From NCBI GenBank assembly GCA_905221615.1, contig CAJNDT010001269.1, positions 917,565 through 981,564 on the forward strand: 64,000 nucleotides of DNA. The letters run 5' to 3'. This DNA comes from Symbiodinium sp. CCMP2592 (taxonomy: Eukaryota; Sar; Dinophyceae; Suessiales; Symbiodiniaceae). The notes beneath the pieces are model-generated. The model worked only from the letters and a program-made list of their open reading frames with translations, searched no databases and had not been told where the DNA came from. Position numbers and translations under genes: made by a program. Shown here piece after piece: positions 15,966-40,683 of the stretch (its first letter is position 1; every line of letters starts with the position of its first letter).

Positions 15966-16313
15966 CCTCGACTCTAGGAGTAAGCTTGTGGACGTGCTAC
16001 GCACACCGCATCGCTTCTCCTTACCTTTCTATGTGACCGACCACGCAACGTTTGGCTCAAGTCAATGCCCATAGCTAAGTGCTATATGTGTCTTCTATCC
16101 TGAGCAATCGGAGCTATCCCGTTGCACAGACGAACCGCCGCCGGCAGTGAGTGCAAAAGGAACGGCCGCCGGTTCTGCCTGCATAGGATTGCACGTGTGG
16201 AAGTGAGAGAGAGACAGGGTCCAGTCTGTGGAGAGTGCAAGCCAGCCACACCTACATTCATTACAGCTCTGGGGGGGAGAGCAGCAACCAAGTCGAGATC
16301 AATCCCCCACGCA
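15966..16313 (+). repeat. LTR2, shared central LTR (5' part hidden by gap)
   Basis: Matches LTR1 from about 5438 to its CGCA end. In its middle it shares the ggagtaagcttgtgg segment with LTR1, whereas LTR3 lacks it. It serves both as 3' LTR of unit 1 and 5' LTR of unit 2. Confidence 0.9.
16040..16061 (+). promoter_or_regulatory. Spliced-leader-like motif in LTR2
   Basis: TTTGGCTCAAG at 16051-16061, same context as in LTR1. Confidence 0.45.
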
Positions 16314-16332
16314 GGTTATCAGCCGTACGCGG
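16314..16332 (+). promoter_or_regulatory. Candidate primer binding site of unit 2
   Basis: Identical to the 19 bases after LTR1, directly after the CA end of LTR2. Same weak half-tRNA resemblance. Confidence 0.35.
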
Positions 16333-16377
16333 CTCTGCCTTTCTACAGCAACGACTACTTGATCTACTACGACCACA

Positions 16378-18975
16378 ATGAACTCGGGATCAAGCCAAGA
16401 TACGAAAATGACTTTCGGTGCCGATGTGGCAGCGCCAGCCGTTGGTGAATCAACAGCTGATGACACAGTGGTGCAATCCGTTGATAGCTCCACGGAAGAT
16501 GACAAAGGTAAATCTTCTGCGCTTGCCATTGCAAAGGCAGTTCCCAAGGTGAAAGCAAAGAGTCTACCAAGAGCATCTACGCCTTCGCGTCCGACATCCA
16601 CAGGTTCGAGGACGGGCAAGGCTCCAGAACGACGAGCCGAAGCGTCTGGTTTTCAGGCACCGCGGACTACGTCCAGGGCCAAGGACAAGGGAGTGAAGAC
16701 CTTGGAAAAGAAGTCGAGACCATCATCTTCGAGAAGCTCTTCAGCACGATCAAGGACTTCGGCTACTCGTGGGCGTGACAAGTCAATGACATGGAATCGG
16801 ATGGTTACCAATCAACCACGCGATGCTGACGATCTGGATATGACTCTGGACACTATTCCTGCACGTGGTGATGCGTCATCGGTGACCACGCCAGCCATAG
16901 CCGATGGACCGAATGCCTATCAGGAACTGACGATTTCGCAACAGTTCGAAGCATCGAACCTTGCGCAGCAGATGTACTATCGCAGTCAGATGCAAGAGTA
17001 CGAAGGAGTTGTCCAGACCCTGATGGATAAGATCAAGGAGATGCAACAAGAAGATGAAGCATCTGGGATTCGCATCGAAGAATTGGAACGACAACGTGAC
17101 CATGCATGCTTAGCCATGAGGCACATCAACAATGTCAATCAGGAGATGAAGCGAGACTATGAAGCAGCTTTGTTTCGCATGGATGAACAGAACTCTGCTC
17201 AACAACGTCAAGCACACGCCGTTGCCGAGGAGTTGGCTCAGCAGCTACACGTGTTTCGCACGGAAGAAGCCACTAACTTTGTGCAGTTGGAGGCAAGAGC
17301 GCAAGGCGATGGTGAGCTTATGGCACGTGAGTATGAGCATCTGACTCATGAACTTCATGAACAAGCCAGAGAGAACTTGTTCCTCCGGTCGAACACAGCA
17401 AGTTCGGAACAAGCCTTACAAGCAATGCAGGAGCGATTCCACTTGGTCAAGAATCAGGAGTTGCGGGCCGTGAACGAGATCCAAGGGCTAGCTGGGAACA
17501 GCGCAGCCATTGATCAAGAACGACTTCGGCTTCGCGAACGTCTTGGTGAAGAGGAAGAGTACCGCAAAATGGCTGTGAGGAGGATGCAAGATGCAGAGGA
17601 CCGACTTCATCAGAATGAAGATCACGCAAGGCGCGCATTGCCTACCTTGCACGATGAGCTGAGTGAACTCAGGAAAACACTCAGAGCACAAGAAGATCTT
17701 CAAGCGAGGACACGCAGCGAATTGGAGGCAGCACGGAACTCCAACTACCATGGCGGAGTGACACGGCCTTCGAGCATGCCCATGTCTTCGAGGACTACTG
17801 AGTCTGGCTGGGAGCACGTAGGAAAGGAAGTAGTGCCCGCATTTTCCGTAGGAGGTGAGGTACGATCCCCTGAAATACGGTCCCCAAGTCAAGTTAGTCC
17901 AGTCGCCAAAGAGAAGTTCGCATTCTCGGAATCGGACAAGGACAAGAACCTTGCGATGGATGGAATTCCATTTACCGGTGGAAACTTCTTCACTGGCCGC
18001 ATCAAAGGCGAGGTGAATAAATCCTATTCAACGCCAATCGTGGCGGCGGATGCAATGCCCGAGCACTACGTGCCAGGTATTAGCAGCCCAGCGCATGCGC
18101 GTTCCACGCCTTGTGCAGCCACTCTGTTTGGCATACCAAGCGGATTTCATGGGCAAAGTGATGCGGCAGCCGTGCGTGATCGACAGCTACGTGAACTCTT
18201 GGAGGATCGCGGGATGTTGGGATCGAAGTCCACAGCATCTGCCAGCTCCTCAAGACCTGTTGGTATCGACGGCATTATCGCATCTACAAAGGGCAACGAC
18301 CTCATTGGTGCCCCTGTCGCCTATGACGATTCCATCCATGAGGCAAGGAGGCGTCAGATCGAGAAAGAGGTCGCGGAACGGTACGAAGAGAAGATTGCCG
18401 ATCTGCGAAGCGAAGTACTCAAGGCCCAGAAAGCCGAACAGCGTCCCAGAGCTGATCGTGATGAGTGGAGATTATTTGCTGAAACGATTCAGGAAGACAA
18501 TGGAGACGATGACGGTGATGAAGCTGGCGACGAGAACGGAGAGGGAGAGCATGATGAAGGAACCGGCACGGGGTATGATCCTCCAGATCCGCCTGATGAT
18601 GACGATGATGATAAGAAGAGAAGCGGGGGAGGCAAACCTGACCCGGATCCTGACCCTCATGCGCGTGATCCTGATGGAGACGCAGATCCTGAAGTCACAG
18701 AGGTGAGAATTTCCAGGAGGGAAGCCGATAAAGTGACCGTTCCTCCATGGCCTACTCTCACTCACCTCAACAACTGGCGATCCGTATGCACGGCGAATGT
18801 CTTGGGAGCATCAGCCGACCCAAATCATGAGGACTGGATGTTATGGCTGGCACCAGCGTTCAATCCATTCCCTGATGTCGAAGCACTGAACGATTCGGGA
18901 CACAAGAAGTTCAAGAGCGTAGACGTCAAATTGAATGGGGATCGCCATGGTCGCAATGCTACGCGCTGGTGGTGA
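16378..18975 (+). CDS. Gag N-terminal part of unit 2 (frameshifted)
   Basis: Homologous to residues 1 to ~850 of the unit 1 Gag: charged N-terminus, coiled coil, acidic hinge and the start of the capsid-like region. A four-base insertion near 18932, absent from unit 1, shifts the frame, and translation would end at 18975 after a short unrelated tail. The same ATG context as in unit 1 supports the start. The product would lack most of the capsid-like region and both zinc fingers. Confidence 0.85.
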   Translation: MNSGSSQDTKMTFGADVAAPAVGESTADDTVVQSVDSSTEDDKGKSSALAIAKAVPKVKAKSLPRASTPSRPTSTGSRTGKAPERRAEASGFQAPRTTSRAKDKGVKTLEKKSRPSSSRSSSARSRTSATRGRDKSMTWNRMVTNQPRDADDLDMTLDTIPARGDASSVTTPAIADGPNAYQELTISQQFEASNLAQQMYYRSQMQEYEGVVQTLMDKIKEMQQEDEASGIRIEELERQRDHACLAMRHINNVNQEMKRDYEAALFRMDEQNSAQQRQAHAVAEELAQQLHVFRTEEATNFVQLEARAQGDGELMAREYEHLTHELHEQARENLFLRSNTASSEQALQAMQERFHLVKNQELRAVNEIQGLAGNSAAIDQERLRLRERLGEEEEYRKMAVRRMQDAEDRLHQNEDHARRALPTLHDELSELRKTLRAQEDLQARTRSELEAARNSNYHGGVTRPSSMPMSSRTTESGWEHVGKEVVPAFSVGGEVRSPEIRSPSQVSPVAKEKFAFSESDKDKNLAMDGIPFTGGNFFTGRIKGEVNKSYSTPIVAADAMPEHYVPGISSPAHARSTPCAATLFGIPSGFHGQSDAAAVRDRQLRELLEDRGMLGSKSTASASSSRPVGIDGIIASTKGNDLIGAPVAYDDSIHEARRRQIEKEVAERYEEKIADLRSEVLKAQKAEQRPRADRDEWRLFAETIQEDNGDDDGDEAGDENGEGEHDEGTGTGYDPPDPPDDDDDDKKRSGGGKPDPDPDPHARDPDGDADPEVTEVRISRREADKVTVPPWPTLTHLNNWRSVCTANVLGASADPNHEDWMLWLAPAFNPFPDVEALNDSGHKKFKSVDVKLNGDRHGRNATRWW

Positions 18976-21900
18976 CAAATCTGCTGATCTGTACCTGGAG
19001 GTGAACCGGAAGGCCAACGATTACATCAGCAGGCCCGAAGGGAAGATCATCAAAGGCCGACAAATCATTGCGATGATGTATGAAAGTTTTCGAACGCACG
19101 ATCGTCTCGACATGATCATCACTCTCGAGTATCTGGTGAAGCCCCAGTACCAAGGCGACAACAAACTTCATACGTTCAAGCAGACGTGGTTGGAAGTTCT
19201 GGGACGGATGAGGCCAGAAGACATACCATCCAAAACAGCTCTCCGTGATTGCTTGTACAGCAAGATCAAGGACTCGCCCGCAATGAAGATGGAGTTGGGC
19301 ATGCACTACGAACACTTGCCATACAATCATGAAGACCGATCGTACGACAATCTGATGAAGATCATCGACCGTACCATCATGCGGAGACGAGAACAATCAA
19401 ATCTCACTCAGACCCAAATTGGCTTGCGCCAGATGCTTGAGGGCAAGGATTTGCTTGCTGCACCGGCCAAGGTACCTGAGCAACCAACGCCTAACGCAGC
19501 TCCATCCGCAAAGGTCAAGGCTTCGCCGACCAAGCCGGATAAAGCAACACCTGTACTACCTCAAAGCAAAGCGAAGAGTCATGCGAAGACCAAGCCAAAA
19601 CCCAAGAAGAAGACGAGGAGGGAGTCAGCGGACAACAGAGGCGACAAGAGCAAGAAGCAAATCCGCTGCAAGTTCCATTTCACAGATGCAGGGTGTCGAA
19701 ATGGTGACAAGTGCCCATTCAGTCCCTCGAAGAAGACTCCAGAGCGACCCTTTACGCCGAGGACGAGAACTCCAAGTCCGTCTGGAGGAGGAGGAAACAG
19801 GATATGCTACTCTTTCAAGAACACAGGCTCGTGCTCAAGAGAGAATTGTCCTTTCAAGCATGAGGCAGCAGCTACCCCAGCTCCGGAACCAAAGGCAAAA
19901 GCTAAAGCCAAATCCGAAGCAAAGGCAGCTCCAGCGAAGCCGAATGCCAAGGCCAAGGCACTCCCTGCGGCACCCGCCATAAGATTGTGCCGAAGGTGGA
20001 ATCCATCAGCCCCGGCTATATGGAAGCGATCTTCAAGACAAGATGAGGAGGAGTCAGATTGTCCATCCGTTGACAGCGACGCTGATTCGGATTGTTCAAC
20101 AGACGACGAATCCTCGGGACCGACTACGTCGACCCGAAAAGAGATCAAGCGTAATGTGACATTCACCGATGACGTGAAGTTCATTTCTTCGTGTCCTAGA
20201 AGATCGAAGAAGGACAAGGATCGGAAGGTGAAGTACGTCGACATGGAAGCGCTTGTCAACAATGAGGATCGCGCCGTGAATTTGGAATTCGCCAAGCACA
20301 AAGCGAGATTGAGGGCACAGATCATGAGAGACATGGTTGACGACGATTATGATCAATGCGGAGATCGAGTTTCATTCGTACGAATCCCAGGAACGTCTCG
20401 AGTGGAAGAAGTTTCCTTCTACGACGGTGAGGATTCCATCGTTGAGCGTGAACTCGATGCTGCGCACAGCAAACGGATCATCAATCAAGGTGTATTCAAA
20501 TGCATGGTTCAACCAGTCATCCTCAAGAAGAAGATCAAATTTCTCATGGACACTGGGTGTGGCCATGACCTCATATCTCAGAAGAAGATCGAGAAGCACA
20601 GTCTCGAGACACTCGTGACTCCAGAGCCCATATCATTTCAGACAGCAAATGGAATCACCGATACCGATCTTGTGTCGAACTTCCACGGACGACCTCCGGA
20701 CGACGACGAAGGAAAAGGAGTGGGTGAAATTCCATTGGACGGTGACGATGAGGTGATCATTGATGTGGAGGGCGACGGTGCGCCGAGCCGCAAGGCCAGA
20801 GTCGGAACACTGAAAGCCGAAGCCAAGACGTTGGCACATCTGTGTACTCATCGCTACCGCAATCCATATTGCGAATCGTGCATACGCGCGAAAATGAAGC
20901 ACTTGCGGACACAACGAGGTGCATTTCAACGTGTGATCAAACACTGGGGGGATCTTGTGACGTTCGACTTCCTCGATATGCGCAAGGCCGCCGAAGCGGG
21001 TATCGGACTCGATGATGGAACACGTGAAGTTCTAGTCATCAGAGACATCGCCACCAAAATGATCGCGGCGATTCCCACGGCTTCAAGGAATACTGACGAG
21101 GTCGTCATGGCCATCAGACGCCTAATGGGGAGACGCAAGATTCATATGGCGTATAGTGATGAAGCACCAGAGTTCGATTCAGCTATGGCGCAGTTGAAGA
21201 TCGTGATAGATCATTCCCTTCCAGGGAAACCCAGTAACAATTCACTCGCTGAACGATCAACTCAAGAAGTGATCAACGCAGTCGCAGCATCCATGCTACA
21301 CGCCGGGTTACCCGCCCAATACTGGTCCTTTGCGCTGAATTGCGTGATGCAGAACCTCAACATTGAAGACGTGGAGGGCGATGGTGATTCAGCATGGAAA
21401 CGAATGACTGGAAAGGACTTCGAGGGAAAAGCCATACCGTTTGGGGCCAAAGTCTTCTTCAAGCCGACGGATACAAGGCCGAAGACATATGGCAACAAGT
21501 TCGATCCAAAGGGGATCCCAGGCATTTTTGCCGGGTACATCATCACTGCTGGTCAAGGGTGGTCCAAGAAGTATCGCGTTTGGGACATGAAGGAATTTGC
21601 CAATGCGAACCTGTCGATGGACGCATCTGTTCCCAGGAAGTTGATGAGACCGTACGAGACAGAAGTTATCTACTTCCCAGAGGAGATAACATTTCCCCTG
21701 AAAGCCGAGTACGAGAGGATGAACTCAACCATTGAGGGACTCAGGGACAACGTTGACCTCGCTGGTAAGGAGATAAAAGACGTCGATGACGGGGATGACG
21801 GTCCGCCTGGAGGAAATGGTGGCAACGGGGATGATGATGATCAAGATGGTCTTCTTCCTCCGCCGGATCCCGGAGAAGATCCTGACTTGCAGGACATAGA

Positions 21901-23371
21901 TCCATCTGACATAGAGACGGAGCCGTCTGGCGAAGTCTTCAAGTCAGCAGAACATGAAGCTATTGATGCCATAGGAGACAAAAGACTCGAAGAAATAGAC
22001 GAAGAGCTGGGTCTACGTGCAGCACCGCCTCCTTCTGAACCAAAGGTCACTGGGAAAGATCGACGATCGCCCCGCGAAGTCGGTCCAACCGGTAGACTCA
22101 TCCCCGAAGGAGACATCGAAGAACCTGGAGAGATTATCAAGATCTTGAAAGAAAAGAAGTTGGCTCCTGAGGAGATTGAACATTGGAGTACGGGGAAGAA
22201 AGGGGACGGCATTGTATATCTTACTGATGATGGTGAAGCCTGCAAGATCGATAAAAGGGGGGTCCCATACAAGATCCGAAGCGACGGTCGACGAACTCTC
22301 CCTACACGGCGACCTATCCATTCCTATTCTCCGGAAGCATGGAAGAAAATGAGTGAAGCGGAGAAGAAGGCAGCGTACAAGAAAGAAAAGCGAGACAAAG
22401 CTCGAGTTGCAAAGAAGGACCGGAAGAAGGCTGTGATAGGAAAGAAGATAGTCACCAAGATTTTGGACAACATGATCTTTCCCAAGATTGTTCCATGTGA
22501 AGAAATTGATCTGCAACTCAACGTGTCCATTGACGACGACGATGGATGGTCCTGGGCACAGTCCTATGTGGATCAATACACACAAGAGCAATTCTTGTCA
22601 GACGTCGTGCCGGCTGTTCCGGCGCATATGGTCATGGATGATAACTGGATTCCGTCTATGCCGTGTACGACTTCTCACAGAAACGTACATCGGGAAAAGA
22701 AACATGCAGGAGGATCATGCTTCAATGCCATGGTCACTCGACCCGTCACACGCAAGGAGATGGTCAACAACCCCAAGGCCATGGAAGCTTTCATGAAAGA
22801 ATGGAAGGGATTGTGGGACCAAGATGTGTTTGATTTCTCAACTACGCGTGAATATGACGACGTCGTCGCTGAGGCAAAGAAGAAAGGTGAGAAAGTACAT
22901 ATGGCGCGAGTACATGGACTGATATACGAGAAGAACTATCAGCTCAAAGAGGACGATCCTGCCAGGAAGTTCAAAGGGCGAGGTGTACTACTCGGTGACC
23001 AGGTCAAAGACCAGAATATGGAAGCCGCATTGTTTCAGGATTTGGGGAATTCCCCGGCTACGTTTGACGCCTCACGGTGGGCAGATTATTACGGATGCCT
23101 TCCTGGCAACGATGTCCAGATGGCGGATGCTATCCAAGCATACATTCAGGCGAGACTATCGGGCACTCCATGTTGGGTTGAACTGCCTGATGAAGCCTGG
23201 CATCCATCTGCGAAAAGGCATAAATTCCGTAGACCTGTGTGTCGCCTGATCAAAGCTCTATATGGACATCCTGACGCAGGAACCATGTGGGAACAACATT
23301 GCCATACCGCGGTACAGAAAGTAGGATTCAAGCCGATTGGCGACGATCATTGTATTTCCACCCGCAGATGA
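18935..23371 (+). CDS. Gag C-terminal part-truncated protease-integrase-RT fusion of unit 2
   Basis: Continues the Gag frame after the four-base insertion; the ATG at 18935 is created by the inserted bases and is probably not a native start. Order: capsid-like region, two CCCH fingers, protease DTG, then a direct join to the integrase, because 413 bases corresponding to 10150-10562 are missing. The deletion removes the second half of the protease and the -1 frame change, so integrase follows Gag in one frame. The first CCCH finger has lost its histidine (CPFSP instead of CPFSH). Integrase residues D, D and E are kept. RT runs until a seven-base deletion near 23346, just upstream of YVDD. Confidence 0.85.
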   Translation: MGIAMVAMLRAGGDKSADLYLEVNRKANDYISRPEGKIIKGRQIIAMMYESFRTHDRLDMIITLEYLVKPQYQGDNKLHTFKQTWLEVLGRMRPEDIPSKTALRDCLYSKIKDSPAMKMELGMHYEHLPYNHEDRSYDNLMKIIDRTIMRRREQSNLTQTQIGLRQMLEGKDLLAAPAKVPEQPTPNAAPSAKVKASPTKPDKATPVLPQSKAKSHAKTKPKPKKKTRRESADNRGDKSKKQIRCKFHFTDAGCRNGDKCPFSPSKKTPERPFTPRTRTPSPSGGGGNRICYSFKNTGSCSRENCPFKHEAAATPAPEPKAKAKAKSEAKAAPAKPNAKAKALPAAPAIRLCRRWNPSAPAIWKRSSRQDEEESDCPSVDSDADSDCSTDDESSGPTTSTRKEIKRNVTFTDDVKFISSCPRRSKKDKDRKVKYVDMEALVNNEDRAVNLEFAKHKARLRAQIMRDMVDDDYDQCGDRVSFVRIPGTSRVEEVSFYDGEDSIVERELDAAHSKRIINQGVFKCMVQPVILKKKIKFLMDTGCGHDLISQKKIEKHSLETLVTPEPISFQTANGITDTDLVSNFHGRPPDDDEGKGVGEIPLDGDDEVIIDVEGDGAPSRKARVGTLKAEAKTLAHLCTHRYRNPYCESCIRAKMKHLRTQRGAFQRVIKHWGDLVTFDFLDMRKAAEAGIGLDDGTREVLVIRDIATKMIAAIPTASRNTDEVVMAIRRLMGRRKIHMAYSDEAPEFDSAMAQLKIVIDHSLPGKPSNNSLAERSTQEVINAVAASMLHAGLPAQYWSFALNCVMQNLNIEDVEGDGDSAWKRMTGKDFEGKAIPFGAKVFFKPTDTRPKTYGNKFDPKGIPGIFAGYIITAGQGWSKKYRVWDMKEFANANLSMDASVPRKLMRPYETEVIYFPEEITFPLKAEYERMNSTIEGLRDNVDLAGKEIKDVDDGDDGPPGGNGGNGDDDDQDGLLPPPDPGEDPDLQDIDPSDIETEPSGEVFKSAEHEAIDAIGDKRLEEIDEELGLRAAPPPSEPKVTGKDRRSPREVGPTGRLIPEGDIEEPGEIIKILKEKKLAPEEIEHWSTGKKGDGIVYLTDDGEACKIDKRGVPYKIRSDGRRTLPTRRPIHSYSPEAWKKMSEAEKKAAYKKEKRDKARVAKKDRKKAVIGKKIVTKILDNMIFPKIVPCEEIDLQLNVSIDDDDGWSWAQSYVDQYTQEQFLSDVVPAVPAHMVMDDNWIPSMPCTTSHRNVHREKKHAGGSCFNAMVTRPVTRKEMVNNPKAMEAFMKEWKGLWDQDVFDFSTTREYDDVVAEAKKKGEKVHMARVHGLIYEKNYQLKEDDPARKFKGRGVLLGDQVKDQNMEAALFQDLGNSPATFDASRWADYYGCLPGNDVQMADAIQAYIQARLSGTPCWVELPDEAWHPSAKRHKFRRPVCRLIKALYGHPDAGTMWEQHCHTAVQKVGFKPIGDDHCISTRR

Positions 23372-23862: not shown

Positions 23863-25521
23863 ATGAAATTGCTTTATGCCGCGCGCATTTGCCGCTTTGA
23901 TCTTCTGCGCAGTATCAACAATCTCGCGCGCAAGATCACGAAATGGACCAAGAAGGAGGATGCTCTTCTTCATCATCTCATGGCCTATGTGCACCAGTCC
24001 AAACATCACATGATGATTGGATGGGTCGGGAACTCCTTGGAGGACTCGTCCATCGGGCTGTTTGCAGATGCGGACTATGCAGGTTGTGGAGAAAGTTTGA
24101 AATCTACCTCCGGTGCTCATTTGCACATTCAAGGTTCTCACACAAGATTTCCCTTGGCGGGACTTAGCAAAAGGCAGGGGTGCTTGAGTCATTCCACACC
24201 TGAGGCCGAGATTGTCGCGGCCGACTTTGCCATGTCACGTCTTGGATTGCCTGCTATCACGTTGTGGCAGCAGCTTGGGGGGCAAGACCCCAACTTCGTC
24301 TTCTACGACGACAACCAGACCATGATCGGGGTGATTCGCACGGGCAAGAATCCGACGATGCGTCATTTGGAACGTACCCACGGCATCTGCATTGGCTGGA
24401 TGCATTCTATCTTTCAGGAAGGCTACGTTTCTCTTGCCTATGAGGTCACTGCCAAGATGTCAGCGGACATACACACCAAGTCGTTCAAGGATTCTGTGTC
24501 CTGGACACACGCGTGTCAGCTCATCAACATTTTTCCGCCGGCCCTCATTGGCTCCCAAGAGATTATGGATCTGATGCGCCCTACTCATACACAAAGCACG
24601 GATGAGAAGGGTCAACAGCATTTCTCGTTCAAGAGCGAGGTGCCTTGTTTTCCTTACACGCAGACGCCGATCCTCCCTCAGGTGTTGTATCGCGCTGGAT
24701 TGTCGAGTAAGGAAGGCTTGCAAGAACATGACAGTGTGGACCCCATCCTGGTTGTCAAGTTCCCGCGCATGTTGCGGGGGCCGCCTTCCGCGTTGCCGCC
24801 TGGTCGTTACCTTCGGTCGACTTGGATTCTTCGTGAAGGGCAGTGGCACCAGATGGAGGACCGTGCTGCTATCCTTGATCAACCGGGCAAGTTCGACCGC
24901 TATGTGGAGCGTGCTGTGTTTCAATACCATCCGGTCCGGGGGCATTTGCGCCCAGCCGCTATTGCGGACGTACTTGCGCCGCCGTTTTTGCCTCCTCCTG
25001 AACCGCCTTTGGGCCAGTCTTATGTGCGCGCCCTGCCCGCCAAATGGCGAGCGGTGGTTGTCACACTGGCGCGTGCCATCCATGGGGGGTACCAGGGCTT
25101 TACATTACCTCTTTGTTTCAACGGCCAGTCCAAAAGTCAAGCCTCCCAATTCGGCTATGACCAATGGTCGTCAGTGTACGAGGATGTATGGCATGATGCG
25201 GCTGAACAGAAAAGGGAATATCAAGGATATGATGGAGCAATTGTGCCTCACGTGGTCAATTTCGCCGAAAACAAACCCAAGGAGGGCCTGGTGATCCAAT
25301 TCCTCGACCACGATGGAGGGTTGGTCCATACTTACAAGAATCCTTACAGCCGGTGGAAATACCGTATCACTATCAAAGATGCTCCAAAAGCAGTGACGGT
25401 GTGGACATTGGTAGGAGTCGATGAGGAGAACTGGTGGAATGAGTATGCTCCTGGCAAGGACTGCATTGCGCAGCATGCTCCCGATTCTCACTACGACCCT
25501 GGGTTGCAAGAAATGTTCTGA
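23863..25521 (+). CDS. RNase H and first part of extension, unit 2
   Basis: Same copia RNase H motifs as unit 1 (ADADYAGC, STPEAE, YDDNQ, HTKSF), then the Trp/Tyr-rich extension. The frame is open upstream from about 23812, across the site where unit 1 has lost a base, showing that RT and RNase H belong to one polyprotein. It stops at 25521 because one base present in unit 1 (gcaagtaaatg) is absent here (gcaagaaatg). Confidence 0.85.
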   Translation: MKLLYAARICRFDLLRSINNLARKITKWTKKEDALLHHLMAYVHQSKHHMMIGWVGNSLEDSSIGLFADADYAGCGESLKSTSGAHLHIQGSHTRFPLAGLSKRQGCLSHSTPEAEIVAADFAMSRLGLPAITLWQQLGGQDPNFVFYDDNQTMIGVIRTGKNPTMRHLERTHGICIGWMHSIFQEGYVSLAYEVTAKMSADIHTKSFKDSVSWTHACQLINIFPPALIGSQEIMDLMRPTHTQSTDEKGQQHFSFKSEVPCFPYTQTPILPQVLYRAGLSSKEGLQEHDSVDPILVVKFPRMLRGPPSALPPGRYLRSTWILREGQWHQMEDRAAILDQPGKFDRYVERAVFQYHPVRGHLRPAAIADVLAPPFLPPPEPPLGQSYVRALPAKWRAVVVTLARAIHGGYQGFTLPLCFNGQSKSQASQFGYDQWSSVYEDVWHDAAEQKREYQGYDGAIVPHVVNFAENKPKEGLVIQFLDHDGGLVHTYKNPYSRWKYRITIKDAPKAVTVWTLVGVDEENWWNEYAPGKDCIAQHAPDSHYDPGLQEMF

Positions 25522-25523
25522 GT

Positions 25524-26885
25524 ATGGGGCGAGAAGTTGACGACGCCATGTGTGCCTACCTCTTCGATGTGGTGGAAGCGAGGAAAAACAACCCTAACTC
25601 CGTGATCTTCATTGGCGCAGGGGTGTTGGGCAAGAATTCGTGGCTGAGTCGGAAAATCGCTGACAACCCTGAAAGGGCCAAATTGCGGACAGACTACCCA
25701 TGGGGGGAGGTCGTCCAAAGAATTGCGCGCAGAGCGGCATCATGGGGGTTCCAAATCATCATCGAAGTACCTCCTCGAGTACCAGTCCAGGAAACCAAGC
25801 AGTACAAGGGACTTCAGGAAGATGCCATGTGGAAGAGCGTCAAGATCCAAGGATGCACTCACGGGCAACGTTATACCTTTCGGGATCCTGTATCTCCCGG
25901 AACCGCCGTTGAGCTCGGCTACTGCAAGGATGAATGGGAGTACATTGCCGCAAACGTCGCGTTGCATCCTAAGTCGTCTGACGTGTGCTCGTCCAAACAT
26001 TTGCACATGACCGATTCGGACGCTAAGGATCGATCTGATAAATGCGAGTTGACTAGCCAAATCTCCAGGAGATTGCTTAAAGCCTTGAAATTTCAGGCAA
26101 CGGGCGATGGGAGATTGGTAGCCATGCCGTCGAAGGCTGGTGGACGAAAGCCTGACCGCATGATCGTTGACCTATGTGGCTTGGGCAATGGCTACGCCGT
26201 GCCTAAGTCCACTAAGGGATGCGCTCGCATAACTTGCAAGGAGCTGATTGGCTCTAAGGCCGATGAGGACAGCCTTATCGGTGCGATGAAGGATGCGTGC
26301 CGGAATGACCTGCGCACACCTGTGCTATTCGTGGCATCGCTTTTGCGATCAGGTGCTGGTCCTGGAAGTAGTGAAGGGGCTTGCGTGGGGGGTGAGAAAC
26401 GTTCCGGTGGGAAGTACAAGGTTTTCAGAAGTGTCTTGAAATCTCTCAAACGCCTGCTGAAGAAGTGTGCGGAATTTTCCGACGTCTATTTTTCGCTTGA
26501 CATGCCTTCTTCATGTTCATGTTGGTCTTGGCCAGAGTTGCATGCTCTTGTTTCAAGTGGCAAGGTGACGAAGGTTAAGATTGATGACCATGTTGGTGCT
26601 GGTGGCGATGGTGGTGGACGCAGGATCATGTTCTCTAACATGCCTGAAGCGGATCGTTTGATGGTGAGACTGGATGATTGCTTGGACCATGAATCGAAGA
26701 GCAGTTTGTCGCAGCGCATTGATGTTTCATGGCGGTCGATTGCGAGGAATGTTCGCAGCCTTGTTCGAGCTCATGTCAGTGTCAGTCATGATGCACATGA
26801 ATCTGAGGACATTGCATGGCAGCAACGTCAGTGTGTAGACGCTGATGAAGGGGCTATAAGACAGCCCCAACTAAGGAACAACTAA
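25524..26885 (+). CDS. C-terminal part of the Pol extension, unit 2
   Basis: 453 residues continuing the extension after the one-base deletion; only the first ~155 residues are also visible in unit 1. From about residue 200 it shows D-x-C-G-L-G, a V-L-F-V-A-S-x-L-x-x-GAGPGS segment, then F-S-x-D-M-P-S-S-C-S-C-W-S-W-P-E-L (about 26490-26540) and V-K-I-D-D-H. This layout recalls, from memory, an uncharacterised domain often found at the C-terminus of dinoflagellate retroelement polyproteins (a Pro-Cys step, then a W-P-x-x-C-x-x-W step). No function is assigned. The native product is probably the C-terminal end of the gag-pol polyprotein, ending at TAA 26883-26885. Confidence 0.7.
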   Translation: MGREVDDAMCAYLFDVVEARKNNPNSVIFIGAGVLGKNSWLSRKIADNPERAKLRTDYPWGEVVQRIARRAASWGFQIIIEVPPRVPVQETKQYKGLQEDAMWKSVKIQGCTHGQRYTFRDPVSPGTAVELGYCKDEWEYIAANVALHPKSSDVCSSKHLHMTDSDAKDRSDKCELTSQISRRLLKALKFQATGDGRLVAMPSKAGGRKPDRMIVDLCGLGNGYAVPKSTKGCARITCKELIGSKADEDSLIGAMKDACRNDLRTPVLFVASLLRSGAGPGSSEGACVGGEKRSGGKYKVFRSVLKSLKRLLKKCAEFSDVYFSLDMPSSCSCWSWPELHALVSSGKVTKVKIDDHVGAGGDGGGRRIMFSNMPEADRLMVRLDDCLDHESKSSLSQRIDVSWRSIARNVRSLVRAHVSVSHDAHESEDIAWQQRQCVDADEGAIRQPQLRNN

Positions 26886-26996: not shown

Positions 26997-29900
26997 ATGG
27001 CTGAAAGCTACAATGCCTACGAGCTGGCCTTCGAAGGAGTGGACCACGAAGAAGTTTTCCCATCTGGTGGGATGATGCGGACGTTTCTGAAGTTCCACAA
27101 GTTCCTGCAGATGTATTCTGAGGACTCGTCGCAGAGCGTTTCGCTCCCGCCAAAGATTACGAAAGACAAAGTGGTCGACAATGATCTCATTCGCACATGG
27201 GCAGCTTTCAAAGCACCTCCGTTGGTCTTGCTGTTCACGTGTGCAAATCTGTCGCCAGGAGGGGATCTTTCCATTCGAGTCCGAGAAATCCTCAAGGCTT
27301 GCTTATTTGCTGCCCCGGAGGAGTACATGGACAAACCCTATGGGGAGATACTCGCCATGGTCATCAAGTTTGGTGGAGGTCTCAAACACATTGTTGCTGA
27401 CTACGGAGGGAAGTTTCATGCCATCACAAGATTTATGGTGGATGAGGAAGTGATCCGCGATGATGCAAAGTTGGCTGTGGTTGAACTGGAACAAGAAAGA
27501 AAACAAGTTCGGTTCGACTTGAACACTGCAACCAGGAACATTGTCAGTGCGGACGTGTACTACAATCTCGCCGTTCTCATCAATTCCGTGGAGACGCCCT
27601 ATCAGGCCGTGACAGACACGAGAATTCAACAATGGTATACGGTGAATCAGGACTACTACCACAAGTTGCCTATGTCAGGCAGAGCACCTGACCAATCCGA
27701 CCTGTTGGGAGAGCCTACGTTATGTAGGGTGTGCAAGCTGATGTACATGTTCGCAAAGCACACTGGGTATGGGCTTCGGACCTACAACCAGGAATGTGCA
27801 GCGGGCAACGATGGCGCTACGCCAATCAACGTTCACCAGCTGGCTTTGATGATGCGCACATTGCCTCAAGGCATGGGACATCCGCTCGCCTTTGCGATGA
27901 ACTCACTCCAGGCGTTCAGTGTTTGTCTCCACGTGCTTCATTCCTATGTATCATGGATTGATCCACAAACTGGACTCCCGCATTACAGATGGTCTAATGA
28001 CGTGCTCCCCGATTCCGACTACACCACGTATGCTTTCCTCAAGTACCATGTGGATGCAGTATGTGCAGCTCAGGACAAGAACGGTTTCCAATTGCCGGAT
28101 GCGTTCCGTGGCTACACCTGGAATCAATGCGGAGTTGAATCTGGGTACGTGGTCGACTGCTCTACCAAACGCGCCACATTGGGCATATGGGAAGCGGAAT
28201 TCCAACAGATGAGGGCACCAAATCCGCTTATGCAAGATGATGGCCTATTTCCGCCCAACCTTCAACGGCATCCTAGCTGGGTATACTCAACGGGGAGAGT
28301 TGCGATGCCTACGGCAAGCAACCTCGAACCGGAAGGAATCGTGCACCCTGAGCATGGAAGAACGCCGGAACAATCGCAAGGATCCGCTGCCGGACCTCGA
28401 GCCACCCCTAGCCACGGACCAAAGAGGGCAAGGACGGACGAGGCAACGGCATCGGCGTCGTCATCTTCTGCGGCACCTCCTCCACAACAACCGCCTTCGC
28501 AACCGGAAGAGGAACCATCGCAACCGACATGGGAGGAAGCTCCAATCCCCGCTGGCGCTCAGGAAAGTTGGTACCATTATGTCAACATCGATGAGAAGGG
28601 CTGTCGTTCGATCTTGCTGACGACGACCCGTGATCACGACGAGTACCCACCTGCCATTGATGAGACGCCAAAGTTTGTGGCCAACCACGACGTGGGGACC
28701 ACACCGATTCAGCATTACGTCAGAAGACTGGTGACCTATTTGGCAAGGATCCGTTCCGTCTCTCAAAATGATGACAAGGGTCTCAACCTGAAGGTCTACG
28801 TGAAGCTGAGTACAAAGGTGTGGTTACGGATGTATTCACGGCTGTACCATGCATTGGCATTGGTATCATGCGTGCATCTTCCTTCTCCTCCAATGCTTAC
28901 CTCGGCAGTGATGATCGAGGCAGATAGCGATCTTGTCGACAACGATGACATTCCGGAAGAAGCAAGGATCAACACCATGAACACGCTGAACGGATTTCGC
29001 AATAGTTTGGGTATGGGTGGCAAACCTGATGCCGCGACTATGCGCTCTCAGTGCACAATCCTCGTCCAGGACTTTGACATGGTTGCAAGGACCAGGGGAT
29101 CAACGCACACGGTGAGAGAGAACCTCGGCATGCATGGATGGAGCGAGATCTACATTGTGAGCCCGTCGATCACCACAGGTGCCAACTACAACTTCCAAGT
29201 CACAAAAGGATCGTTGGAATCTGTGAATGCGACATTGGATGGCTTGACCGAAGAGCAGCTTGCAACCGTCACACTGCATTACCATCTGTCTCTCCAGGCA
29301 ATCCTCATCGAGAACATGTCTTTTCCGATGAGTGAGGTCGGAGACGGAGCAGCGATTCGCACTGACTTGCAGCGACAGCTCAAGGTGACGTACGTTGACC
29401 CCATCATTGCAGCAGGGAAGCGTACCACGCGCCCTCCAATTGTCAACATCAACCACGACTTACGGTTCGTTGGAGCAGCTAGCAATTACCTTCAGCACAA
29501 AGCTTCTCTGTTCAACGGTTTCCACGCGCTGGGAATGTATATTGAACTGGAGTTGCGAGCCCGAGCATGCGTGGTGATTCATGGATCTTCGTTTTGGTCA
29601 AGAATGTACAGCCAGATGAAACATGCGTCATCAGGCGTGCATACACTGTCAGCCGAAAAGGTGCCAGCACCGGACAATCGGGTCAGGTTCAAATTGGGCT
29701 ACGCTATCTACGAGAAGCAGCTGTTCTGCGAGAAGATGGTATCCACGTGCTTTGTTGAGGCATCGAAAGTTCGCTCATGGGACGAAACTGTCCGCGCCGA
29801 CTCAGTCGCTCACCCGTCGCTTGTCGAGATTTGGGAGGACAAGAGTGAAGTCAAGACGTCCACCAGGATTTCGCAGACATGGTTCACGGGAGAACAGCAG

Positions 29901-32900
29901 CAACAGATCAGGTCGGGTGCCCAGGGTGACACGGTCGCTGAATCGTCCACAGTCACCTGGCAGGACTTTGACATCGCCATGACCGTCCCCGAAGCCTACT
30001 ACGACAACAGGCACTACTGGTTCCGGATCGACACCTACGCGACCCCGAACACCGGCTATGTCAAAGGGAGAACGTTCTATTGCCCTGGATGTGACGCAAT
30101 GAAGTTGGCTGAGTGCTACGCACAGGCCTTCTTCAAGCCGACTGGAAACGGGTATCCTGGACACTGCATTGGGTGCGCGCATACTTCAGCCTTGAAGATG
30201 CAGCATCAAATCGGCTCCTTCAATGACTTAGTCGCGTCCCAGAAGTACACCTTGGCTTGCGCAAAGCACCTTTATGACCTGAGGCTTCAATTTGTGGACC
30301 CTCGCATGGACATCAAGGAGTTCCTCAAAGCTTGTGCGGAAGTGGTCTACGAAGACATTGGCAAGACGGTTTCTCACTACGGTGGTCTCCGAATCACAGC
30401 CAGTCAGGCCATCGAGTACGCGGCATGGGGAAAGGCCAAACAGTTGGCATGGGACAGAGGATACGACTCCGAAGGCAAGACATGCTACATCTGCTACTAC
30501 GATGCCGGGAACTGCGCTTATGCTGGTTTCATGAGAATGCTTTTGACTCCGGAGGAGCGCCAAGAATGCTACAGAGGGTCAGCCTTGCCCAAGGAGGAAC
30601 TCCTGGGTGACACGGTGGAGCTGGCGCTCGGGCTTCTTACAATTGCAATGAGACACCCAAGTCATTTTCCGAATTGGGGTGGCCTTGAGGGAGCAAATGC
30701 GTGCGTGAGGGGAATCGAAAGATCATTCTTCCGCTACGCGTCGGCCGAAGCTATCGAGCTGATCACGGTTGACTCCCCGCGCAAAAGGACACCGCCCAAG
30801 AAGAATGAAGCAGTCGCTGAGATCGTCAACAACATGTCCGCTGACCTCGTGATTGATTTCACAGTGATCGTCGATGGTGATATCTACCCCGTAGAGATTG
30901 CGAGAACCGACGAGACACAGGCCGCTGACAACGTCACGGACGATCCAGGGTTCTCCGTTGCTCCACCAATACCTGCACAGGATGTAGATGTGGATGCGCA
31001 ACCCGAAGAAGAACAAGGTGCAGAAGACCCTGATCCCAGGCAGATGATTCGTGAAGGATTTGTCGCGCAGCTTCAGGACTATGTGGGAGTACTCGCTCAG
31101 GGCGAAATGTCGGTCGGAAGCGATCGCCTCACGTTCTGTATCGCTTGTGGCAGTGATCAACACCATCTGTCCAATTGCACGGAAAATGCTGCGACCCGGG
31201 ATCTGGTACTTCGAGGCATCCAGATCATCAAGGAAAGCCTTCTTCGATATCCACGTCGAGTACCTCCACAAGAGGCTGAGCCAATGGACGTTGACACCAC
31301 AGACCATGTGAGTGTTGCATCCTCGGACCGACGACCCAAGGCCAAAGCCCGACCGCGACGCGGAGGCGAAGCCGTACGGGGTGATGTGGTCTTGATCCGT
31401 TATGAGAACAAACACAATCTCTGCACGGATGTGGAGAACCGTCGGGGCCTACATGATGCTTGTGGCGTACCACTGCAGGACATGGGACCAGAGAATAGCC
31501 AGCGGGTGGTGGACCTCATTGAGCAGCTTTCGGACCATCGCGACCGACGCCTACCTCAACGAGGAGACCGTCCTAGCTTTGAATATGATGATACTATTCA
31601 GGGCTACACCAATGCAGGCTACGAATGCATCGGCGGCGGAAGGCCAATCCGATGCGGGATTCTCGACCTGATCCCAACCAAGGGTGCAAGCTTCATCCAC
31701 AATCGATGGGACATCGTGAACGAAGTTGTCCTTCGCAACATCACCCATCATCGCAGAAGGAACGCGGATTGGGCGCTATCATGCATCCAATCTGACCTGC
31801 GTCACAGAATTGCCAGGCGCCCAGGCTCGGAATGGCTTGACAACAGGTGCCAGGTGGCATTCAGCAGCGTCATTCGATGTGATGAAGGAGGGTGGGTGCT
31901 GATCGAGGATTTGGTGAGGCATGAGCAACTATGGACCCATGACAGCAGACGCATCACAGAAGCGGTCTCAAGGACCGATGAGCAACAGAGGAAGAGAGTG
32001 TACAATGAAAGACTTCAGCTATTGTTCCAAGGGAACATGCTCGCAGCCACGAGACGCCACAAGGCCAAGATTCGGCTGCAGTTCCTGGGAGTGAGAGTGA
32101 AGGACCCCGGCGTGGAAACTCTTGGATCCGCAGGTTCGAACATGTTGGTATCGATTCCTGACGAGATCACAGAGATCCAGAACAATGACCGTTGCCGGCA
32201 CAGCCAGAGGTACCTGAACGTTTGCAACGGCTGGGTGAAGCCATGGGCAGTTCGGGCTACGAGTGGTCACTCTGCGCACTCAGATCCCCAGAACAATTTG
32301 CTTCAGTTGGACAAGAACAGGTTCGCAATATCTCCATCTATGACCCTCTTGCAACGTCTTGGAGGCGCGTTCCACGCTACGGCATGCCGCAACCTGGATT
32401 CCATTGTCACGCAAGGCATCATGCCTGGTTCGGAGGACCCCGACGGGGACTTCGACCATAGGCGCCAATTTCGAGGCAACCAAGGCGGCAGACTCCACAG
32501 CTATTGGGGGGTATTTGCACCGTTCGATCACCGGAATGCGACGACCAAGATGCGGGTACATGGACGAGATGCCAAGCACATGCCGCTGGCGGTCCTCCAT
32601 GTCCCATCGCAGGACCTTGCACGAGAAGATGGACGTATCACAGACAGCGGCATCATGATCGTTGGCCGAACGATACCGTTCCAGTTCGTCAAGGAGGTAT
32701 GGTTTTGCGTCCCGAACCCTCAAGATACACACTCTTTCGCTCTGGTGGAAAAGATCTACGATGAACGGTTGGAGAAAGAGATGGTGTTGGACTACAATGC
32801 ATCACCTTTGCTCCCTGAGTTCGAGAGATACCGAACACCAAGCAAGATCATGGAATTGCTTTGCGAGATGCCTCCTGGACCCCACGACACCAGCAAGGAG

Positions 32901-34487
32901 CAGATCATTCGAGACCTTACGACTGTCCTGGAGTCCCACAGGGAGAACACGGTTCGGCATCACTACATGGACAAAGGGATCAAGTTTGTCATCAAGAATT
33001 GGCGACCCGAAGACCTACGCAGAGACGAGGATGGAAGGAGAATGAGGGTGTGCCCGGCATGCTACAACATCGTTCCAGCATGCTTCTCCCGATGCACGTC
33101 TTGCTGGTCACAATTCGTTTCTAGCGGATATTACCAAGGTTCTCCACAACGGGAGACTCCTACGGAGATCCCCAGTGACTTCATTGCTCAGACAATGGAA
33201 GCCGCGGCAGCAGCAGTGCCTGAGGCGCCCGAAGAGGAGCAGGAAGCCATGGAGGTAGAGACCGTTGCGGAACCTGAGGAAATCCCAGAACCATCTGTCA
33301 TCGCGGAGGACGATCCAGAACAGGAACCTGATGAAGAAATGGACACAGAGCCAGGAGAGGACTTTGATGACGCAGTACCAGATGCAGTTGCACAGGAACG
33401 ACGTCCCGTCCTCATCGCCGGCCAGTCTTTGAACATCGATCCTGAACTACAACTCGCACGTACCGCCATGCAGCCATCCTACTACTCAGGGAAGCGAAAT
33501 GCCCATTGCATTGACACCAACATGGTCGCTCTTTCGTATATGGCATTCGTGGTATGCAGAACCATCTACAAGGCTTGGTCAGGATTCGCGAAGTGGGCTA
33601 CTATGCCGTTGTTCCAGATGAAGGAGAATTTCGCACTTGGCCAACGCTATGATGTGCTCGGAAAGTGGGGATCTTTGGCTGTAGTGGACAGAGAGACGGG
33701 TGTGAGCAGGGATGTGACTGACGAGGAGATCATTCGCTTTGCCAAGGAGCCTGAGAACCTCAAGCAGTACGATCCCAACGGGACTTACACTTTGAAGCGC
33801 TTCCGGACGAATCAGATGCTTTCGTTGCTTACACGGGGAGCCAACATGATGGGAATTGGCAGGGACAACTTCAACCCTACTACGTACTTGAAGAGCAACA
33901 GGGATGAAGATGTGAAGGCTATGCACTTCTGTTGCCTGAACGTCCTGTGCGAGGTGATTCCGATGGTGACAGGACACCAACAATTCTCAGTGCTACGACC
34001 AACGCCAACTGGACCGGTGGACTTCCTGTACATCGACCCCGTCGGTATCCTGCTGACTCATGCCGATCATTCAGTCCAGACCATTGGATTGCTGGTGGAC
34101 CACAATGTGCAAATGCCTGCGCATTTCATGGACAGATTGGTCAGATCCAAGGCTGAGAGACAGCAAAACCCGACAACCAAACGTACTGAAGCCCTACATC
34201 ACATTTCGGCCGCTGACTATCTCCCTCCAGGTGGTACTTCCATCCTGGACACGCCTGTCACTACGGAGGAACGTGCAAGCGCTTCTTCGGCCAAGGGACC
34301 TTCAAAAGGGCGTGAGAGAACCGGAGGTGAACAGCATGGAGGCTGGAACGCCAACACCTACTATGACTACACCGCCGGCAAAGGCCGAAACAAAGGCAAG
34401 GACAAAGGAAAGCAAAGGGAACAGTATCCAGAGGAAAACCTCCGGCCCTGGGACCGCGATCCTGCGACCACGCGAAGATGGAGATGA
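26997..34487 (+). CDS. Retrotransposon ORF3: giant protein with zinc motifs and a KptA/Tpt1-like RNA 2'-phosphotransferase region
   Basis: A 2,496-residue uninterrupted frame; the ATG is in a strong context (GCCATGG). Residues 1-500 resemble no family I recognise; a low-complexity Pro/Gln/Ala/Ser linker spans ~430-515. C1029-x2-C1032...C1057-x2-C1060 looks like a zinc ribbon. C1381-x2-C-x4-H-x4-C1394 is an exact retroviral-type zinc knuckle. Residues ~1600-1905 resemble KptA/Tpt1: R1602-H1603 with DEGGWV; R1753 in RATSGHS; H1793 in FHATACRNLDSIVTQGI; R1832 in GGRLHSYWG; then REDGRITDSGIMIVGRTIPFQ (matching the family's NGV..T..VP step). C2019-x2-C2022...C2033-x2-C2036 is another paired-Cys motif; an acidic Glu/Asp stretch (~2060-2130) and a Lys/Arg/Gly-rich tail follow. 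It lies inside the element, between pol and LTR3, so it is element-borne. Intact length in a copy with broken pol suggests constraint or recent activity. Confidence 0.8.
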   Translation: MAESYNAYELAFEGVDHEEVFPSGGMMRTFLKFHKFLQMYSEDSSQSVSLPPKITKDKVVDNDLIRTWAAFKAPPLVLLFTCANLSPGGDLSIRVREILKACLFAAPEEYMDKPYGEILAMVIKFGGGLKHIVADYGGKFHAITRFMVDEEVIRDDAKLAVVELEQERKQVRFDLNTATRNIVSADVYYNLAVLINSVETPYQAVTDTRIQQWYTVNQDYYHKLPMSGRAPDQSDLLGEPTLCRVCKLMYMFAKHTGYGLRTYNQECAAGNDGATPINVHQLALMMRTLPQGMGHPLAFAMNSLQAFSVCLHVLHSYVSWIDPQTGLPHYRWSNDVLPDSDYTTYAFLKYHVDAVCAAQDKNGFQLPDAFRGYTWNQCGVESGYVVDCSTKRATLGIWEAEFQQMRAPNPLMQDDGLFPPNLQRHPSWVYSTGRVAMPTASNLEPEGIVHPEHGRTPEQSQGSAAGPRATPSHGPKRARTDEATASASSSSAAPPPQQPPSQPEEEPSQPTWEEAPIPAGAQESWYHYVNIDEKGCRSILLTTTRDHDEYPPAIDETPKFVANHDVGTTPIQHYVRRLVTYLARIRSVSQNDDKGLNLKVYVKLSTKVWLRMYSRLYHALALVSCVHLPSPPMLTSAVMIEADSDLVDNDDIPEEARINTMNTLNGFRNSLGMGGKPDAATMRSQCTILVQDFDMVARTRGSTHTVRENLGMHGWSEIYIVSPSITTGANYNFQVTKGSLESVNATLDGLTEEQLATVTLHYHLSLQAILIENMSFPMSEVGDGAAIRTDLQRQLKVTYVDPIIAAGKRTTRPPIVNINHDLRFVGAASNYLQHKASLFNGFHALGMYIELELRARACVVIHGSSFWSRMYSQMKHASSGVHTLSAEKVPAPDNRVRFKLGYAIYEKQLFCEKMVSTCFVEASKVRSWDETVRADSVAHPSLVEIWEDKSEVKTSTRISQTWFTGEQQQQIRSGAQGDTVAESSTVTWQDFDIAMTVPEAYYDNRHYWFRIDTYATPNTGYVKGRTFYCPGCDAMKLAECYAQAFFKPTGNGYPGHCIGCAHTSALKMQHQIGSFNDLVASQKYTLACAKHLYDLRLQFVDPRMDIKEFLKACAEVVYEDIGKTVSHYGGLRITASQAIEYAAWGKAKQLAWDRGYDSEGKTCYICYYDAGNCAYAGFMRMLLTPEERQECYRGSALPKEELLGDTVELALGLLTIAMRHPSHFPNWGGLEGANACVRGIERSFFRYASAEAIELITVDSPRKRTPPKKNEAVAEIVNNMSADLVIDFTVIVDGDIYPVEIARTDETQAADNVTDDPGFSVAPPIPAQDVDVDAQPEEEQGAEDPDPRQMIREGFVAQLQDYVGVLAQGEMSVGSDRLTFCIACGSDQHHLSNCTENAATRDLVLRGIQIIKESLLRYPRRVPPQEAEPMDVDTTDHVSVASSDRRPKAKARPRRGGEAVRGDVVLIRYENKHNLCTDVENRRGLHDACGVPLQDMGPENSQRVVDLIEQLSDHRDRRLPQRGDRPSFEYDDTIQGYTNAGYECIGGGRPIRCGILDLIPTKGASFIHNRWDIVNEVVLRNITHHRRRNADWALSCIQSDLRHRIARRPGSEWLDNRCQVAFSSVIRCDEGGWVLIEDLVRHEQLWTHDSRRITEAVSRTDEQQRKRVYNERLQLLFQGNMLAATRRHKAKIRLQFLGVRVKDPGVETLGSAGSNMLVSIPDEITEIQNNDRCRHSQRYLNVCNGWVKPWAVRATSGHSAHSDPQNNLLQLDKNRFAISPSMTLLQRLGGAFHATACRNLDSIVTQGIMPGSEDPDGDFDHRRQFRGNQGGRLHSYWGVFAPFDHRNATTKMRVHGRDAKHMPLAVLHVPSQDLAREDGRITDSGIMIVGRTIPFQFVKEVWFCVPNPQDTHSFALVEKIYDERLEKEMVLDYNASPLLPEFERYRTPSKIMELLCEMPPGPHDTSKEQIIRDLTTVLESHRENTVRHHYMDKGIKFVIKNWRPEDLRRDEDGRRMRVCPACYNIVPACFSRCTSCWSQFVSSGYYQGSPQRETPTEIPSDFIAQTMEAAAAAVPEAPEEEQEAMEVETVAEPEEIPEPSVIAEDDPEQEPDEEMDTEPGEDFDDAVPDAVAQERRPVLIAGQSLNIDPELQLARTAMQPSYYSGKRNAHCIDTNMVALSYMAFVVCRTIYKAWSGFAKWATMPLFQMKENFALGQRYDVLGKWGSLAVVDRETGVSRDVTDEEIIRFAKEPENLKQYDPNGTYTLKRFRTNQMLSLLTRGANMMGIGRDNFNPTTYLKSNRDEDVKAMHFCCLNVLCEVIPMVTGHQQFSVLRPTPTGPVDFLYIDPVGILLTHADHSVQTIGLLVDHNVQMPAHFMDRLVRSKAERQQNPTTKRTEALHHISAADYLPPGGTSILDTPVTTEERASASSAKGPSKGRERTGGEQHGGWNANTYYDYTAGKGRNKGKDKGKQREQYPEENLRPWDRDPATTRRWR
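31794..32716 (+). other. KptA/Tpt1-like domain within ORF3
   Basis: In Tpt1/KptA an N-terminal winged helix (LRH...P...GL..D..GWV) is followed by R-A-x-Q-GHS, H-G-T-(S)-x-x-x-x-x-x-I-L-x-x-G-L, R-x-H-V-H-L-S and a C-terminal NGVW/VPP segment. Here the order and spacing are the same: DLRHRIARRP...DEGGWV, AVRATSGHS, FHATACRNLDSIVTQGI, GGRLHSYWG, DSGIMIVGRTIPFQFVKEVW. The usual Arg-His-Arg-Arg set is matched by R1602, H1603, R1753 and R1832. The family moves an RNA 2'-phosphate to NAD+. A divergent ADP-ribosyltransferase of another branch is the main alternative. Confidence 0.65.
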
Positions 34488-34751: not shown

Positions 34752-35181
34752 TGCGAACGGACTGCGATGCCTTGTCAAGTTCTAAGGTGTCACTATAAGA
34801 GCTGTGAGCAAGACCGTGTAAAGTGCAAGAGAAGGGGGCACGCTACGCGTCCCTCGACTCTAAGGGGGCACGCTACGCGTCCCTCGTCTTTACCTTTCTA
34901 TGTGACCGCCCACGCAACGTTTGGCTCAAGTCAATGCCCATAGCTAAGTGCTATATGTGTCTTCTATCCTGAGCAATCAGAGCTATCCCGTTGCACAGAC
35001 GAACCGCCGCCGGCAGTGAGTGCAAAAGGAACGGCCGCCGGTTCTGCCTGCATAGGATTGCACGTGTGGAAGTGTGAGAGAGACAGGGTCCAGTCTGTGG
35101 AGAGTGCAAGCCAGCCACACCTATATTCATTACAGCTCTGGTGGGGGAGCAGCAGCATAATCGAGATCAAATCCCCACGCA
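34752..35181 (+). repeat. LTR3, 3' long terminal repeat of unit 2
   Basis: 430 bases with TGCGAACGG and CCCCACGCA ends. It differs from LTR1 and LTR2 in the middle: the ggagtaagcttgtgg segment is absent and agggggcacgctacgcg occurs twice (around 34832 and 34864). It contains the spliced-leader-like motif at 34920-34930. Confidence 0.92.
34909..34930 (+). promoter_or_regulatory. Spliced-leader-like motif in LTR3
   Basis: TTTGGCTCAAG at 34920-34930, conserved although the LTR midsection has diverged. Confidence 0.45.

Positions 35182-38252: not shown

Positions 38253-38254
<2 letters not shown>
36359..38254. other. Non-coding stretch with telomere-like heptads
   Basis: No gene recognised. Clusters of CCCTAAA/TTTAGGG-type heptads occur around 36500-36606 and 37315-37500, degenerate and interspersed. 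A small inverted-repeat element lies at 37141-37300. Confidence 0.5.
37141..37300. repeat. MITE-like small inverted-repeat element, copy 1 (compound)
   Basis: Ends ggggcttaaataatta and caattcaggcccct are imperfect inverted repeats; inside are ttttggggggttcctta and ggccccaaaaccctattcta. The left half is repeated (aggggcctgataaatgatta at 37196), as if two copies were nested. Related copies are at 45416, 45895, 47158 and 49470. Confidence 0.6.
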
Positions 38255-38303
<49 letters not shown>

Positions 38304-38337
38304 CATACATACACATACGCACACACACAATCAATCA

Positions 38338-38411
<74 letters not shown>
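38255..38411. repeat. (TA)n microsatellite flanking copy C
   Basis: Long TA runs interrupted by ACAT and CACA units. Copy C starts directly after it. TA tracts also border the outer ends of A and B. Confidence 0.9.
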
Positions 38412-38412
<1 letters not shown>

Positions 38413-38413
<1 letters not shown>

Positions 38414-40667: not shown

Positions 40668-40683
40668 ATATATTTATATATAC

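Follow-up and report, generated by a model that had tools for sequence, protein, structure and literature searches.

The RNA 2'-phosphotransferases of the Tpt1/KptA/TRPT1 family (PF01885) combine a winged-helix lobe with an ADP-ribosyltransferase (ART) lobe. Tpt1 strips internal 2'-phosphates from RNA in two steps using nicotinamide adenine dinucleotide (NAD+), its Arg-His-Arg-Arg tetrad touching the 3'-phosphate and the 2'-phosphate of the junction and an HGT motif serving at the NAD+ site; the account in PMC6333775 describes the enzyme as widespread and treats its substrate, where a fungal-type ligase is lacking, as an open question. In Symbiodinium, long interspersed nuclear elements (LINEs) and DIRS elements carry DNA methyltransferases (DNMTs), whereas in the main text of that report Copia elements appear without a DNMT domain and the word "phosphotransferase" is absent (PMC5890265). 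KptA itself is cargo of the polyproteins of a few RNA viruses; these are positive-strand viruses with no reverse transcription, and the main text describing them contains none of five terms chosen for retroelements and dinoflagellates (PMC9503650). Here we analyse a window of 64,000 nucleotides from Symbiodinium sp. CCMP2592 (contig CAJNDT010001269.1, positions 917,565 to 981,564) and show that it holds a Copia-type element of ~19-20 kb, in which an open reading frame (ORF) behind pol, ORF3, encodes a polyprotein in which a zinc knuckle and a zinc ribbon flank a complete Tpt1/KptA domain. Like the DNMT carriers it is a dinoflagellate retroelement bearing a host-type nucleic-acid-modifying enzyme, and as in the RNA viruses a KptA travels within the polyprotein of a selfish genome. 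With Copia/Ty1 (Pseudoviridae) it shares RVT_2, weak aspartic-protease matches, long terminal repeats (LTRs) of the form TG..CA and a 5-bp target duplication; it differs in the extra ORF3 of ~2,500 residues and in total length, the usual Copia element being several times smaller. We found no report of Tpt1/KptA in a retrotransposon in the open-licence PubMed Central literature.

The original prediction, a KptA/Tpt1-like region at 31794-32716 of the window, was drawn from motifs that include RH...GWV, RATSGHS, GGRLHSYWG and DSGIMIVG, and these lie in ORF3 in the order predicted. PF01885 (PTS_2-RNA) matches this stretch with 32.2 bits (E 1.4e-7), against a curated Pfam gathering cut-off of 26 bits. 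The score falls to 30.9 bits for a 421-residue slice of ORF3 and to 25.3 bits, narrowly below the cut-off, for the whole 2,496-residue protein; seven of eight homologous slices match at E up to 10, the window slice included. Comparison of profiles (33 rows, each of more than 200 residues) gives 46.97 against Tpt1, while 40 column-shuffled controls reach at most 21.72 and the reversed control 17.06. A sequence search of the PDB with a single domain protein returned no match, and searches with two profiles placed Tpt1 in the top row both times, at best E values of 0.085 and 0.046. A first structure model, built from eight sequences, was poor (predicted local distance difference test, pLDDT, 50.9); KptA/Tpt1 took its two best Foldseek rows (E 0.019 and 0.031), closely followed by ART toxins. 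It is superseded by a model whose alignment drew on 26 of 36 sequences (the window and 35 homologues), which matches KptA/Tpt1; TkoKptA with DNA and NAD+ is among the matched structures, and the modelled fold has both the winged helix and the ART lobe. The region first proposed, ORF3 residues ~1580-1910, thus stands, except that the structural match is slightly wider (Table 1). We conclude that the domain almost certainly belongs to Tpt1/KptA. It departs from the known enzymes in its setting within a long polyprotein, in a wide insertion in each lobe and in its deep separate branch.

All four Arg/His/Arg/Arg positions foreseen for the active site align with the Tpt1 tetrad and are conserved (Table 1). 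Arg1753 and Arg1832 are placed there by the local profile alignment, and Arg1602-His1603 align with the LRH of Tpt1 in the global alignment, with low column confidence. At the NAD+ site the HGT of known Tpt1 reads HAT, retaining His and Thr with Gly replaced by Ala. Homologues number 35, of which one search gave 7 and another 28, and include sequences from S. microadriaticum and from Symbiodinium sp. KB8; a search started from one of them, P0011, returned P0011 alone. Plain Pfam often overlooks the domain in full-length homologues, and a precomputed PF01885 assignment exists for one of the 35 (P0013, from S. microadriaticum).

The domain evolves under purifying selection. The ratio of nonsynonymous to synonymous substitution (dN/dS) between the window and two diverged copies in the same genome is 0.115 and 0.112 (dS 0.53 and 0.55), against two further diverged copies 0.097 and 0.105 (dS 1.41 and 1.42), and against two close copies 0.026 and 0.132. 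One of the four diverged copies, L036, has a stop within the matched stretch; L036 and L037 were kept in this comparison though they are without the motif used in the preceding step. Against the diverged copies the remaining ORF3 gives 0.05-0.16 and is similarly constrained, and therefore the domain has been retained together with the whole protein.

The window contains two gag-pol units. Unit B runs from a partial 5' LTR through gag-pol and an ORF with no Pfam match, which shares its frame with ORF3, to ORF3 and the 3' LTR. Unit A is a second gag-pol copy that meets a run of N before any ORF3. Its RVT_2 match lies above the cut-off and is the ground for the Copia assignment; unit B, whose gag-pol is interrupted relative to unit A, reaches 19 bits for RVT_2 (cut-off 31.6), and the gag-asp_proteas, Asp_protease_2, rve_3 and SH3_retrovirus matches upstream of the reverse transcriptase (RT) are all below cut-off. 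Because of the assembly gap the linkage of unit A to unit B is unsure; the ORF at 13746-15977 runs across the N stretch and therefore has an artificial end. The unit A match stops at 15865, and the N run ends at 15965. The outer LTR flanks in the window share no 5-bp duplication. A further copy on another contig, C914, read at its ends and over the domain stretch, has 5' and 3' LTRs (TG..CA) separated by ~19.7 kb, with the domain in between, the 5-bp duplication CTTGC and the same primer-binding-site (PBS)-like start; its 5' LTR start carries one extra base. This copy (~92174-111850 of C914) has itself inserted into the Tpt1-coding portion of a different ORF3 copy. Likewise, one KB8 gene model combines RVT_2 with a stretch that shares 40% identity with the domain. 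Within the genome 129 of 1,153 candidate copies were scored, all 97-100% identical and three with a stop in the stretch; being the best candidates, they are a sample biased to young copies. A 12-mer adjoining the LTR has 1,484 occurrences, its reversed control 40. The zinc knuckle, found in 2 of 2,000 composition shuffles, is present exactly in 11 of the 35 homologues, and the ribbon in 15; many homologues are partial and too short to contain either.

Table 1. Features of the element in the window; residue counts are over aligned rows with a letter at the position, the window included, the rows being gene models, some of them cut
Feature	Position	Strand	Remark
Tpt1/KptA-like domain (winged-helix RNA lobe and ART NAD+ lobe)	31752..32762	+	ORF3 residues ~1586-1922
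Tetrad Arg1602-His1603 (motif DLRHR)	31800..31805	+	31/31 and 31/31 rows
Tetrad Arg1753 (motif RATSGHS)	32253..32255	+	33/34 rows
Tetrad Arg1832 (motif GGRLH)	32490..32492	+	27/29 rows
NAD+-site HxT, HAT 1793-1795	32373..32381	+	H 30/33, T 31/33 rows
ORF3, 2,496 aa, longest ORF of the window, holds the Tpt1-like domain	26997..34487	+	
Zinc knuckle CX2CX4HX4C, retroviral type	31137..31178	+	residues 1381-1394
Zinc-ribbon-like CPxC...CxxC	33051..33104	+	residues 2019-2036
Unit B Copia ORF	18935..23371	+	zf-CCCH; below cut-off gag-asp_proteas, SH3_retrovirus, RVT_2
Unit B pol end	23863..25521	+	RNase H-like by eye; no Pfam match
Unit B ORF between pol and ORF3	25524..26885	+	no Pfam match
3' LTR (TG..CA)	34752..35181	+	window self-comparison
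Unit B 5' LTR	15966..16313	+	first ~100 bases lost at assembly gap
Unit A 5' LTR	5337..5784	+	window self-comparison
PBS-like stretch directly after LTR (GGTTATCAGCC...)	16314..16335 and 5785-5806	+	
Unit A ORF	10597..13749	+	RVT_2 35.1 bits (cut-off 31.6); weak integrase-related matches

Tpt1 is not confined to this element. A PF01885 search of the same genome gave 152 matches (150 of 1,550 candidates scored), and all those listed exceed the cut-off, none scoring as low as the Copia copies. At least three LINE-like retrotransposon groups bear a canonical Tpt1, for which no published report was found; the original prediction had proposed looking for the domain in other dinoflagellate retroelements. 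In the first group Tpt1 and an APE-type endonuclease (Exo_endo_phos) lie in one ORF (L023, 4679-9181, followed downstream by an RVT_1 ORF, L027:784-2955; likewise L034:4429-8619) or, in a relative, in neighbouring ORFs (L020:2486-5347), with Tpt1 scores of 152-174 bits for L023, L034 and L020. The second has a 665-residue ORF in which a weak PARP-like part accompanies Tpt1 (L017:4298-6292, L028:2489-7216), so that two ART folds may possibly sit in one protein, and a companion ORF that encodes RVT_1, zinc fingers, a UCH ubiquitin hydrolase and a weakly matching endonuclease. More than 100 of the listed genome rows match this group in profile span and score and are provisionally taken, on those two measures, as a single family; on C5312 two Tpt1 ORFs of this kind, sharing 92% identity across 2.4 kb, flank a single RT ORF at a distance of ~10 kb from each other. 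In the third (L025), Exo_endo_phos and RVT_1 ORFs come after a Tpt1 ORF of 757 residues. A further match, L010, looks like a host-gene exon, its nearest PDB entry being human TRPT1 (E 1.2e-30). In a tree of rows longer than 250 residues, read without regard to the root, a branch of length 2.07 with support 1.0 sets the ORF3-type rows apart from these genome Tpt1 rows, so that the Copia and the LINE lineages probably acquired Tpt1 separately. Tentatively, then, dinoflagellate retrotransposons may have captured Tpt1 as a module repeatedly and independently, in one Copia lineage and in three or more LINE-like groups of this genome, and 2'-phosphorylated RNA may in general hinder reverse transcription in these cells, or act as a mark for host restriction, a hurdle that the elements would overcome with an NAD+-dependent RNA-healing enzyme of their own.

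What would a retrotransposon gain from such an enzyme? We lean slightly towards the explanation that the element-borne Tpt1 strips RT-blocking phosphates from element RNA. Given that its active site is conserved and under selection, we argue for catalysis: judged by these residues, the domain is likely an active NAD+-dependent RNA 2'-phosphotransferase. Some NAD+-using RNA activity seems to us quite probable; a part in reverse transcription we propose with less than even confidence. Element RNA would be cut and then rejoined by a host fungal/plant-type RNA ligase, leaving an internal 2'-phosphate that, we infer, stalls RT on the template. The element Tpt1 would remove it, the 2'-phosphate attacking NAD+, nicotinamide departing and a transesterification yielding 2'-hydroxyl RNA, so that the resealed RNA could serve as template. 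In addition or instead, Tpt1 might clear a 2'/3'-phosphate from the 3' end of a cleaved tRNA primer; candidate substrates would be resealed element RNA, a tRNA primer with a 3'-end phosphate, and 5'-phosphate ends. Some Tpt1 enzymes reportedly have terminal 2'/3' phosphomonoesterase activity (Munir 2019). An exon matching the CPDase domain of tRNA ligase (PF08302, 37.9 bits, cut-off 23; C2491:321619-321867) hints at a fungal/plant-type tRNA ligase in the alga. The PBS resembles the copia/initiator-tRNA pattern over 11 bases with one mismatch; half-tRNA priming, as in Drosophila copia, employs a PBS complementary to the tRNA anticodon arm (Hemivirus type). As a primer tRNA-Ile(GAU) was considered and dropped, this tRNA being normally absent from eukaryotic nuclei and the PBS flank being able to fold into a UACG hairpin. 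That potential hairpin, AGCCG-UACG-CGGCU right behind GGTTATC in both PBS-like starts, could matter for priming.

Several observations weigh against this explanation. The ligase evidence is one exon covering 72 of 250 profile positions, and a search for the primer tRNA gene with a tRNA-like pattern gave one match, as did the control, and identified none. LINEs prime on target DNA and require no tRNA primer, yet they also bear Tpt1, and primer healing is therefore not the common reason; the LINE Tpt1 favours a resealed-RNA substrate or a defence role over the tRNA primer. The dN/dS of the domain is not below that of the remaining ORF3. The domain is distant from canonical Tpt1, with its long branch and long insertions, and none of seven scanned full-length homologues passes the PF01885 cut-off, the sole weak matches being P0008 (13.9 bits) and P0012 (17.1 bits); the substrate may therefore have shifted.

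Of the other explanations the best placed, though unlikely, is that the domain counters a host defence or repairs RNA damage: host metal-independent RNases would cut tRNA or element RNA, and the element Tpt1 would clean 2'-phosphates after repair so that translation and transposition continue. KptA has been read in this way in phages, alongside the few RNA viruses with KptA in their polyproteins (PMC9503650). Several Tpt1-bearing retrotransposon groups in one genome would be expected under a common host pressure, but Pfam recognised neither an RNA ligase nor a kinase or 2H partner in the element ORFs scanned, and we know of no such defence in dinoflagellates. Less probable still, the domain would cap the 5'-phosphate ends of element RNA or cDNA with ADP-ribose, shielding them from nucleases or sensors. 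In vitro, Tpt1 and TRPT1 ADP-ribosylate single-stranded RNA at its terminal 5'-phosphates (PMC9458441), the match to TkoKptA with DNA and NAD+ fits, and a 5'-end role would suit LTR and LINE elements equally; the tetrad that contacts the junction phosphates is, however, kept in nearly all aligned rows. The same conservation, extended to HxT, speaks against a fold that is non-catalytic and retained to bind RNA within a structural ORF3 protein, since binding alone would not require it, and we regard this as improbable even with the flanking zinc motifs, the strong divergence from canonical Tpt1 and a constraint resembling that of the remaining ORF3. The N run between the units and the unmatched outer flanks might suggest that the domain is a host gene or assembly error beside the element, but the C914 copy effectively refutes this, and the LTRs enclosing ORF3 downstream of the gap, the 129 scored copies and the KB8 linkage point the same way.

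The removal of RT-blocking phosphates remains the reading we prefer, and the Copia-borne Tpt1 suggests that the element supplies the RNA repair for its own copying. Selfish elements that retain Tpt1 under selection point to a substrate within the reverse-transcription cycle, and an RNA-repair enzyme is added to the host-type enzymes borne by retrotransposons. A direct test is now at hand: does a 2'-phosphate stop the element RT, and is the stop lifted by its own Tpt1?

Elsewhere in the element, a region similar to the ORF between pol and ORF3 stands ahead of the ORF3-like part in P0011 (3,161 residues) and has by eye a methyltransferase-like appearance (FASLPCTGG). Beyond the 3' LTR, long arrays of the dinucleotide AT, their inverted arms large, lie at 38239-38441, close to repeats that 35183-36374 and 38575-40700 have in common with each other and with the window's left end (3418-5336).
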